Shown: positions 31,758 through 36,521 of the stretch, one piece after another
Layout: each line of letters begins with the position of its first letter
How positions within the stretch are numbered: the first letter of the stretch is position 1
Origin: Alkalispirillum mobile
GTDB taxonomy: Bacteria; Pseudomonadota; Gammaproteobacteria; Nitrococcales; Halorhodospiraceae
Assembly (NCBI RefSeq): GCF_003664325.1
Contig: NZ_RCDA01000001.1
Coordinates: forward strand, 186,001 to 250,000
Length of the DNA: 64,000 nucleotides
Direction of reading: 5' to 3'
Made by a program: the position numbers and the translations under genes
The notes under the pieces: generated by a model
What the model was told of the DNA's origin: nothing
The model's database searches: none
Seen by the model: the letters and a program-made list of their open reading frames with translations, nothing else

Positions 31758-31833
<76 letters not shown>

Positions 31834-31842
31834 AGCATCAGG

Positions 31843-31870
31843 AAGCCCCGGCCAGACCGGGGCTTCTCTC
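31843..31870 (+). terminator. Hairpin terminator after tRNA-Gly
   Basis: AAGCCCCGG (31843-31851) pairs perfectly with CCGGGGCTT (31857-31865) around a 5-base loop, followed by the pyrimidine-rich CTCTC. The tail is not a clean T run. It appears to separate tRNA-Gly from the following tRNA pair. Confidence 0.6.
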
Positions 31871-31959
31871 GTTATGGCCCCCGGAAACCCGCTTCACCGC
31901 AGCGGGGTGGGGCCAGGCGGCCCCGCCCGGCGGGGCTCGCAATTTGGCCCCCGGGCTGA

Positions 31960-31965
31960 TATTAT
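31960..31965 (+). promoter_or_regulatory. Possible -10 box for tRNA-Cys/tRNA-Leu
   Basis: TATTAT (5 of 6 to TATAAT) 12 bases before tRNA-Cys, in a locally AT-rich pocket, followed by a GC-rich discriminator (CTCCGC). No good -35 was found. It suggests a second transcription unit after the hairpin. Confidence 0.38.
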
Positions 31966-31977
31966 TTGCTCCGCAAA

Positions 31978-32051
31978 GGCTAGGTGGCAGAGTGGTGATG
32001 CAGCGGCCTGCAAAGCCGTGTACCTCGGTTCGATTCCGGGCCTAGCCTCCA
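31978..32051 (+). tRNA. tRNA-Cys (GCA)
   Basis: 74 bases. GGCTAGG pairs with CCTAGCC. The anticodon loop CTGCAAA (32008-32014) has GCA at 32010-32012, and CCA is encoded at 32049-32051. Second of the conserved pgsA-linked Gly-Cys-Leu trio. Confidence 0.97.
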
Positions 32052-32104
32052 TCTTCTCCTACTCGACTCTCCGGCCCCGGGGCCCTCCCCAAAGGGCTGC
32101 GCCC

Positions 32105-32190
32105 GCCCGGATGGCGGAATTGGTAGACGCAGGGGACTTAAAATCCCCCGGCTTTTAGCCGTGCCGGTTCAAGTCCGGCTCCGGGCACCA
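32105..32190 (+). tRNA. tRNA-Leu (UAA)
   Basis: 86-base type II tRNA with a long variable arm. GCCCGGA pairs with TCCGGGC. The anticodon stem GGGGA/TCCCC encloses CTTAAAA with anticodon TAA (32139-32141). CCA is encoded at 32188-32190. Confidence 0.97.
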
Positions 32191-33296: not shown

Positions 33297-34160
33297 GCGG
33301 CCGGCGTTCGCCCCGCGTGGCTCTCAACAGCAGGCGGTCCATCCAGCGGGTGGATAGCACGCGCCGCAAGACCCCAAACAGCCAGGTCGGCAGCGTCACG
33401 TAGTACCGGGGCCGGGGGTGGGGGCCTCCAGGGCGTGGATCAGTTTGCGGACGACCGCGTCGGCCTCCAGGGTAAACGGCGTGCCAGCGCCCTGACCGGC
33501 CAGCCGGGCCTCCACCGCGCGGTACGTCTCGGCATGGGCGCTTCGCTCCAGGTTGATATGGCGTCGAAACGCCGCGTGCGCATTCTCCCGGAAGCGGCTC
33601 GTGATCGGCCCGGGCTCGATCAGGCTGATGTGAATCCCGGTGCCGGTCAGCTCCTGGCGCAGGGTATCCGTTAACCCCTCCAACGCGAACTTGGAACAGA
33701 CGTAAGCGCCGCGGTAGGGCAGCGCGGCAAACCCCAGCACGGAGCTGTTCTGCACGATACGCCCGTGGCCCTGCGCCCGCATCACCGGGATGACGCGCCG
33801 GGTCAGCTCATGGGTGCCGAGCAGATTGGTTTCCAACTGAGCCCGCAAGACCGCGCGAGTCAGGTCCTCGACGGCGCCGGGTTGGCCATAGGCACCATTG
33901 TTGAACAGCGCGTCCAGACCACCGCCGGTACGGGCGAGAACCCACGCCAGCGCACCCTCGATGCTGGCGTCATCATCCAGGTCGAGTGTTACCGCCTCGA
34001 ACCCTTGTTCGCGGAGGCGCGCCACGTCCGTTGCCTGGCGGGCGGTCGCGAACACCCGCCACCCCCGCGCACGCAGGGTGGTGGTGGCCGCCAAGCCGAT
34101 GCCGCTGGAGCAGCCGGTGATCAGGATGCTGCGTGGCGCTGGCGCAAGGTCTTGGGTCAT
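33289..34160 (-). pseudogene. Short-chain dehydrogenase/reductase with frameshifted C-terminus
   Basis: The intact open frame runs from 34160 to 33396 (254 residues) and carries TGCSSGIG (nucleotide binding), NNGAYG, the catalytic Ser in QNSSVLG and the YxxxK pair in YVCSKFALEG. It ends abruptly after EAPTPGPGTT. In the neighbouring frame the sequence continues as PRPRYYVTLPTWLFGVLRRV...STRWMDRLLLRATRG down to 33289, exactly the tail expected for this SDR family. A one-base shift in the G/C run at about 33406-33426 separates the two. The catalytic core is complete, so a shortened enzyme may still work. It starts one base after the dipeptidase fusion stop, so the two are co-transcribed. A sequencing error is possible. 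Confidence 0.75.
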
Positions 34161-34161
34161 C

Positions 34162-36354
34162 TCACAGCACCCCCATGCGCAGCACCGCCGCCATGAGCAT
34201 CAGGGTGCCGGTGGTGGCGATGATCAACCCGCCGGTGCCCTGGACCAGCGCGCGGACGGTGTGGGCGTGACGGGCAAGCAGGTCGCCCCAGCGGCTGCGG
34301 GTCACGGACGCAACGGTGGCCCCGCGCAGCCACTGACTGCCCGTTGCAAAGAAGCTCAGGGTGAGCGCGGTGCCCAACGCCATGGCCAGAGTAGCGGCGA
34401 TACCGACGGGGAACAACCCGACCGCGAGGGTGAAAAGCAGTAGGCCCAGGGCACCGGAGCAGGGCCGTACGCCCACGGCGACCACCATGGCCAGCAGACC
34501 GCGTCCGGCGGTCGGCGGCTTATCACCGTGGCAGCAGGGTGAGCGCACACCGCCGATAATGGCGCGTGCCAGCAGTGTCAGGCCGAGCAAGGCGAGCAGG
34601 CCGTACGCTATGGCCTCAATGGCCGCAGCCTGATCCAGCAGGCGTGTCACGGTGCTCCCCAGCACCCAAAGGATCAGCGTCACGGTCACGATGGCTGAGA
34701 GGGCCTGGAGCAGGGCGATGCCGGAACTGGCGAGCAACGCCGAAGGCCACCGGCCCGGGTTCGCCAGGTACCAGGCACTGATCACCACCTTGCCGTGGCC
34801 GGGCCCGGCCGCGTGAAACAGGCCGTATAGAAACCCGATGAGGATGATGATGGGGGCCGCCGCCCCGGACTGGGAGGCTGCCTGTAACTGCCCCCGGAGG
34901 CTGTGGTTCATCTCGGACTGGGTGCGCGCCAGCCACCCGATCAGGTCCGTGACCAGCCAGCCCGTATGGGCCCGGGCAGGCGCCGGCGATTCCGCTCCGG
35001 CCAGGCCGGCGCGGCCAGCGGTGGCCGCGGCCGGATCGCGTTCGGTGGCCCGCAGGTTTGCGCAAAGGTCCTCCGCCCTCTCGGCACTCCCTCCGGGCAG
35101 GTTGGTAGCCAACACCCGGCAGGCGTTCTGTCCGGCGATGTTCCGGACATCCTGCTCGGTGAAGGGGTCCGGGCGCTGACGCAGGACCGCCGTGAGGACA
35201 TCCAGATTGCTGACCTCGATCAGAGGGGTGACCGACCCGTCGTAGTCCGACCCCAGGGCCACGTGGCGGCTCGGGTCGGAAAGGCCGGCGTCCCGCCCCA
35301 GCTGCATGATGTGCGCCATGGTGTCGGCAATGCGCCAGACACTGGGGCCGATGGCTTGGGGCCAGTAGCCCACCCCGACGACCCCATCGTTGGCCAGAAC
35401 GACGCGGATATCGTCGTCACTGAGGTTGCGGTCGGGGCGGCAGGGTGGTTCGCAGTTGGCGCGCACCCCGGTGTGGGAGATCACGAAAGGCTGATCCAGC
35501 AAATCCCCGGCATCGCTCAGCCCGTCGCTCGAGATGTGCGCAAGATCGACGGTGATCCCGAGCGATTCGGCCTTTGCCAGTGCAATACGGCCGTGCTCGG
35601 TCAAACCGTAGCGTGCGTAGCCCTCATTGGAGCCGGACAGGGCGTTGTCAAAGCGGTGGGTGGGGGCAAACATGCGCACCCCCGCGTCGAACAGCGCCTG
35701 GATCTCCTCCTCGACATCGGCGCGGCTGCTGCCGGTGCCGCCTATCCAGTGTCCCCCCTCAATGCCGAGAAACCCGCCGATCACGTCCTTGCCCGCCTCG
35801 CGGTCGGCGACCAGCGCCTCCAGGTCTGCAAAGTCCAGGATCAGACGGAGTTCGGTGCCCTCACCCTCGCCGGCCCGGGCACGGGCCACGGCGTCGTGAT
35901 AGCGGTCGATCTGGTAGTAGGCGCGCTCCCGGAGGCTGAACATGGGCCGCCCTTGCAGAAAGGAGAGCAGGGTGTTGGTGTCGGGGCTGCGAGCGCTCAG
36001 GGAGTCGCTCCAGGGCATTCGCAGGGGGCTCTTGGTCACGATGGTAAAGCCCTGCAGGGCGACATTGCCTTCGCGCAGACGGGGTACGTCCGCGTGCCCG
36101 AACATGGAGCGCTCCAGCAGATCGCGTTCCCACTTGAGGGTGTCGGCATGCAGGTCAACGATGAACATGGACTGGTGCAGATGCCGGTCCGCTGCCGTGG
36201 GCTCGGGGGCATCCGGGTCGGTGCCGTACGGGTTCATCATTCGGTCGTACTGCCCGGCCAGGTAATAGAGGCCTGCCGCATAATGGTTGTAGGCGTAGTA
36301 CCCGCCAAACAGCAGGACGGCGATGATCAGGAACAGCGTGATGCGTTCGCGCAC
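34162..36354 (-). CDS. Membrane dipeptidase (M19) fused to a NicO-type nickel/cobalt transporter
   Basis: One uninterrupted frame of about 730 residues holding two normally separate proteins. After a membrane anchor (about 5-25), residues 65-425 are an M19 dipeptidase with its zinc ligands in order: His69 and Asp71 (DLHADT), Glu199 (GIEGGH), His273 (DLAHIS), His294 (ISHTG) and the GSDYDG acid near 370. A short Ala/Arg-rich linker follows. Residues about 465-730 are a six-span NicO/RcnA-like permease with LFHAAGPGHGK (514-522) and GVRPCSG (628-634). The peptidase would face the periplasm. GTG at 36354 has GAGGT before it; TTG at 36372 is an alternative. Metal supply to the dipeptidase or metal-peptide uptake is conceivable but unproven. 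Confidence 0.85.
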   Translation of the reverse strand: MRERITLFLIIAVLLFGGYYAYNHYAAGLYYLAGQYDRMMNPYGTDPDAPEPTAADRHLHQSMFIVDLHADTLKWERDLLERSMFGHADVPRLREGNVALQGFTIVTKSPLRMPWSDSLSARSPDTNTLLSFLQGRPMFSLRERAYYQIDRYHDAVARARAGEGEGTELRLILDFADLEALVADREAGKDVIGGFLGIEGGHWIGGTGSSRADVEEEIQALFDAGVRMFAPTHRFDNALSGSNEGYARYGLTEHGRIALAKAESLGITVDLAHISSDGLSDAGDLLDQPFVISHTGVRANCEPPCRPDRNLSDDDIRVVLANDGVVGVGYWPQAIGPSVWRIADTMAHIMQLGRDAGLSDPSRHVALGSDYDGSVTPLIEVSNLDVLTAVLRQRPDPFTEQDVRNIAGQNACRVLATNLPGGSAERAEDLCANLRATERDPAAATAGRAGLAGAESPAPARAHTGWLVTDLIGWLARTQSEMNHSLRGQLQAASQSGAAAPIIILIGFLYGLFHAAGPGHGKVVISAWYLANPGRWPSALLASSGIALLQALSAIVTVTLILWVLGSTVTRLLDQAAAIEAIAYGLLALLGLTLLARAIIGGVRSPCCHGDKPPTAGRGLLAMVVAVGVRPCSGALGLLLFTLAVGLFPVGIAATLAMALGTALTLSFFATGSQWLRGATVASVTRSRWGDLLARHAHTVRALVQGTGGLIIATTGTLMLMAAVLRMGVL

Positions 36355-36521
36355 AGCGACCTCGACGATCAAGAATGGAGTACGGTGCCACCGGCGAGCC
36401 GTATAGGCCGCAGCCAGCCTGCTGCAGGTCCTTAGTCTGCATCGGCCAACCGCCTCGCTGCCACCCCGGCCGCCGGATTCGACGGTCCCCGGGGCTCCCC
36501 GTTTCGGTTATGCTGACGGCG

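Follow-up and report, generated by a model that had tools for sequence, protein, structure and literature searches.

A gene on the minus strand of the analysed window (the whole stretch of 64,000 nucleotides from Alkalispirillum mobile) encodes a single polypeptide in which a membrane anchor is followed by an entire M19 dipeptidase domain and then by a permease of the NicO family. The parts are known and their combination is apparently new, with no earlier report found in a narrow literature search. In our preferred reading, to which we give a probability of about 0.4, the anchored periplasmic dipeptidase acts as the metal-handling domain of a ZevB-like permease, which would move a metal, likely zinc, inward.

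Architecture of the fusion protein

The preliminary description had proposed a single continuous frame containing both domains, and the reading was indeed uninterrupted from the GTG codon at 36354 to the stop codon at 34162-34164 (730 residues); an alternative upstream TTG start at 36372 would add six residues to the protein. No stop codon was found between the domains, and the homologue from a second genus (genome G027, see below) was likewise open. Third-position G+C was similar in both halves of the gene (0.835 for M19 and 0.858 for NicO), and a sequencing error or a chimera was excluded as the cause of the fusion by this uniform codon usage and by the full-length homologous fusion of G027. 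The coordinates of the different parts are collected in Table 1.

Table 1. Location of the fusion gene, its parts, and the adjacent gene in the window.
Feature	Position	Strand	Remarks
SDR oxidoreductase gene	33396..34160	minus	1 base downstream of the fusion's stop codon
Fusion gene, 730 aa	34162..36354	minus	anchor, M19 dipeptidase, linker, and NicO permease; GTG start
NicO membrane domain, residues 497-730	34165..34866	minus	Pfam, alignment, model
GVRPCSG motif	34453-34473	minus	in NicO domain
HAAGPGHGK motif	34789-34815	minus	in NicO domain
Helix preceding first membrane span, residues 466-496, QSEMNHSLRGQL	34867..34959	minus	alignment, model helix 466-496
Junction, residues 417-465	34960..35106	minus	Ala/Pro/Gly-rich linker at its end; alignment with G027
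M19 dipeptidase domain, residues 59-416	35107..36180	minus	Pfam, invariant columns, Foldseek
Membrane anchor at the N-terminus with its juxtamembrane helix, residues 1-40	36235..36354	minus	hydropathy and model

A domain search of the full protein placed both halves above the curated cut-offs of Pfam. The Peptidase_M19 match (E 1.7e-42) covered profile positions 2-318 of 319, and NicO matched in two stretches, the better of them at residues 503-599 (E 3.1e-14, 53.4 bits vs a cut-off of 27.7). The membrane anchor that had been claimed was recovered as a hydropathy maximum at residues 5-23, inside a segment (residues 2-40) that was helical in the predicted full-length model, and the protein would be located in the inner membrane with this one N-terminal anchor.

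The five zinc-site residues named beforehand (H69, D71, E199, H273, and H294) were all at their positions and were invariant across 24 aligned M19 sequences, as were H233, R309, and D370, which we equate with the His, Arg, and Asp that line the substrate site in renal dipeptidase. With the ligand set HxD, E, H, H and the substrate His/Arg/Asp intact, the M19 half is a predicted zinc dipeptidase. This half was modelled with high confidence, and its top Foldseek matches were M19 dipeptidases, with E values down to 2.8e-17, including the Cys-Gly dipeptidase GliJ. A CExPCRPxRN segment (residues 301-310) was present in the M19 proteins of the fusion's clade, whereas other M19 enzymes showed a shorter stretch before RN; a disulfide between its two cysteines is possible in the periplasm.

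Regarding the permease half, the motifs HAAGPGHGK and GVRPCSG, both previously reported, begin at residues 514 and 628, respectively. The full permease motifs were kept in the two full copies known (those of the window's genome, G000, and of G027), RPCSG was kept in 3/3 fused copies, and the permease frame was open along ~265 codons in distant genera. In the alignment, the His-rich loop was mostly gone in two of the three fused NicO copies, and the helix at residues 466-496 matched the QRxLHRxL helix of stand-alone permeases linked to DUF1007 genes, the signal segment of the latter being replaced in the fusion by the membrane-anchored M19 domain. Modelled alone, the permease domain was a mostly helical bundle (mean pLDDT 82.5), and a crude hydropathy scan gave ~4-5 broad membrane stretches, so the six spans attributed to it at first were not established. 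A Foldseek comparison of this model with solved structures detected no close relative (best E 0.26). When the whole protein was modelled, the permease half came out poorly, probably because only two rows of the alignment covered it; the two domains were not placed with confidence relative to each other, so that the model shows no interface.

Occurrence and history of the fusion

The search for further fusions covered ~930 genomes in all, corresponding to 54 genomes of the order plus evenly drawn samples from the class and from the phylum, so that rare fusions elsewhere are possible. The preliminary description had regarded the same two-domain order in relatives as support for a real fusion, and this order was found at full length in G027, which differs in genus from the window's genome and is also placed in a different family (f2, against f1 for the window's genome). 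The G027 protein showed 59% identity with the window fusion over residues 5-730, with no internal stop and a linker ~4-5 residues shorter, and both Pfam domains were found in it (72.3 bits for NicO). In addition, G043, from the same genus as G027, presented an M19 frame with 75% identity that leaves its contig at residue 377, whereas a second contig opens inside a NicO frame and covers it from residue 530 onward; this is probably a third fusion, one gene split by a gap of ~460 bases.

Stand-alone M19 orthologues with 56-75% identity were detected in seven other genomes of the order (G037, G031, G039, G012, G019, G029, and G016) and in four genomes that represent a different family within the phylum (G715, G800, G801, and G802). 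Some of the relatives found were from Aquisalimonas and other Ectothiorhodospiraceae. No NicO match adjoined the M19 orthologues in these eleven genomes, and no other M19-NicO fusion was found among the ~930 genomes searched, the class and phylum samples showing separate genes throughout. The preliminary description had named relatives that all have two separate genes as a refutation of the fusion, and G027 is fused. In most relatives, the M19 gene is separate with no NicO beside it, so this enzyme can do without the permease. The permease domain has the appearance of a dispensable accessory, apparently lost in G037.

In the M19 tree, the proteins from G027, G043, G000, and G037 formed a clade (support 96/88) with G037 nested inside it. 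The three NicO domains from fused copies also formed a clade in their own tree (100/99), and this clade stayed when RcnA and more relatives were added. This clustering of the fused M19 domains and of the fused NicO domains points to a single old fusion event. A clade of fused M19s without G037 was rejected (p-AU 0.02, for a group defined post hoc from the tree). Since the stand-alone dipeptidase of G037 is nested inside the fused group, the permease was probably lost in this genome after the fusion. A search of the 0.6 kb between the dipeptidase and the contig end of G037 gave no NicO remnant, only chance-level matches. By eye, this contig (L060:3081-3636) ends soon after the dipeptidase in repeat-like sequence; loss of the permease through a mobile element is possible.

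Within the window's family, the gene was present in 1/12 genomes searched, the window's own; therefore, its presence there could be explained by transfer from the other family or by multiple losses. Between G000 and G027, the NicO half (44% identity) was less conserved than the M19 half (69%).

Permease affiliation and gene neighbourhood

The fused NicO domain grouped in the tree with the DUF1007-linked permeases, with a long stem and a weak placement within that group, whereas E. coli RcnA was located far from it on a branch of ~5 changes per site. The RcnA exporter was the closest NCBIfam model, with scores of 15.9 and 25.1 vs a cut-off of 195 bits. An RcnA-type nickel/cobalt exporter was rejected on this tree position and on a model score far under the cut-off. 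By sequence, the permease is assigned to the DUF1007-linked branch of the NicO family, here called ZevB-type after ZevB, which we take to be NicO-like, its companion ZevA being presumably a DUF1007 protein. Vibrio ZrgD/ZrgE were considered as NicO relatives and rejected, as they are different proteins (PMC9820375).

The frequent proximity of DUF1007 and NicO genes noted in the preliminary description was found for stand-alone NicO relatives, 24/26 of those sampled having a DUF1007 gene in their flanking DNA. It did not extend to the fusion, with no credible DUF1007 match in the whole window or at the loci of the other fused copies, so the dipeptidase appears joined to a permease without the usual partner. 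The source genome and G027 each carry, in addition, a separate DUF1007-NicO pair; consequently, the fusion is not the host's sole permease of this type, and the DUF1007 protein of the separate pair could serve the fused permease in trans.

Zur-like palindromes with up to two mismatches (<=2) were enriched in 56.6 kb of stand-alone loci, with 5 observed vs 0.1 expected. One box (L061:6363-6375, on G000 contig 5) was located ~100 bases ahead of the host's own DUF1007 gene, and those at L025:3273 and L015:667 were also ahead of the DUF1007 gene of stand-alone DUF1007-NicO pairs. The box at L050 lies within the DUF1007 gene and may be due to chance, and L054 showed a box but no DUF1007 match. The palindromes ahead of the pairs at L061, L025, and L015 suggest that the stand-alone DUF1007-NicO pairs of the order are zinc-regulated. 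No Zur-like box was found anywhere in the window, and Zur control of the fusion gene was rejected on this basis.

Given the grouping with DUF1007-linked permeases, and not with RcnA, and the Zur-like boxes at several such gene pairs, zinc is a more likely substrate for the permease than nickel or cobalt, the "nickel/cobalt" of the initial annotation being just Pfam's name for NicO. However, the metal of the fused permease may have shifted from that of its branch, as the fused copy has no Zur-like box and the His-rich loop is mostly lost in 2/3 copies.

The SDR gene and the fusion gene are probably on one transcript; no SDR gene was found beside the G027 fusion. A DUF418 (YeiB-like) gene was observed in divergent orientation beside the M19 gene in several relatives of the order (loci L059, L060, L063, L064, and L057), whether fused or not (identified by Pfam for the L059 copy and by sequence recognition for the others), and in the window's genome an ABC exporter occupies its place. 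A tRNA cluster (Gly-GCC, Cys-GCA, and Leu-TAA) was located at positions 31758-32190 of the window, after two genes presumed to be uvrC-like and pgsA-like.

Proposed working and comparison with known systems

The preferred reading starts from the observed architecture, the intact catalytic and permease motifs, the single shared origin, and the absence of an adjacent DUF1007 gene. An M19 gene would have been joined to a permease that lacks beside it its usual separate periplasmic partner DUF1007 (ZevA). Attached to the N-terminus of the permease, the tethered dipeptidase would lie in the periplasm at the permease mouth, where it would strip away small ligands of the dipeptide kind, for example Cys-Gly, or retain metal in the two-metal site. 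The divalent metal thus freed, with zinc as the most likely one, would then be carried inward by the permease. The anchor and the helix preceding the first span would keep the topology of stand-alone ZevB. This topology, the zinc substrate, the inward direction, and the coupling itself are inferred, and a coupling of dipeptide cleavage to metal movement is plausible. Against it are the lower conservation of the NicO half, the loop loss, the apparent permease loss in G037, the separate DUF1007-NicO pair of the host, the lack of a Zur-like box in the window, and the full-length model, which did not place the two domains with confidence and so shows no interface. That the hydrolase now stands in for a periplasmic subunit dedicated to metal binding, with M19 delivering metal to a ZevB-type zinc permease and the breakdown of metal-dipeptides wired to import, is doubtful.

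Several of these points also fit a mainly structural fusion, in which both halves do independent jobs and their joining only fixes stoichiometry and placement, with no coupling. The M19 orthologues that stand alone in eleven genomes with no adjoining NicO match, the faster divergence of the NicO half, and its apparent loss in G037 make this the main rival explanation, although the fusion is intact with both motif sets in two families and the fused copies lack the usual DUF1007 partner beside them. Faster divergence and the G037 loss, together with the shortened His-rich loop, would likewise be expected if the permease were on its way out, having ceased to transport and being merely carried along by the dipeptidase; however, the motifs kept in both full-length copies, the RPCSG kept in every one of the three, and the frame open for ~265 codons in distant genera render this unlikely. 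An outward permease, either supplying metal to the periplasmic dipeptidase or removing toxic metal by RcnA-like export, would agree with the need of M19 for two metals in a periplasmic site and with RcnA being the closest NCBIfam model, though far under its cut-off. We consider this unlikely, as the domain falls among the DUF1007-linked permeases, far from RcnA, and stand-alone M19 orthologues must presumably get their metal without this domain.

Physiological substrates are poorly defined both for the membrane-anchored M19 enzymes in this branch and for most DUF1007-linked permeases, and this natural partner swap offers a direct test of the link between dipeptide breakdown and metal uptake, and of the role of DUF1007.

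Among known systems, the M19 membrane dipeptidases (renal dipeptidase, Sco3058, GliJ, and PvdM) have in common with the fusion the fold, the two-metal ligands, and the substrate-site His/Arg/Asp. In contrast to the M19 relatives examined, which have no permease, the fusion carries a NicO domain after the M19 C-terminus. The RcnA nickel/cobalt exporter belongs to the same Pfam family in a broad sense, but it is very distant from the fused permease in the tree, and the latter scores far under the cut-off of the RcnA model. Two reports cite ZevAB as a second system for zinc uptake in Haemophilus influenzae (PMC10563805; PMC8000910). Unlike ZevB-type permeases, the fused copies have no adjacent DUF1007 gene, their His-rich loop is mostly lost, and an anchored M19 domain takes the place of the permease's own signal segment; nevertheless, the fused domain shares with them the GPGHGK and RPCSG motifs, the pre-span helix, and its placement in the tree.
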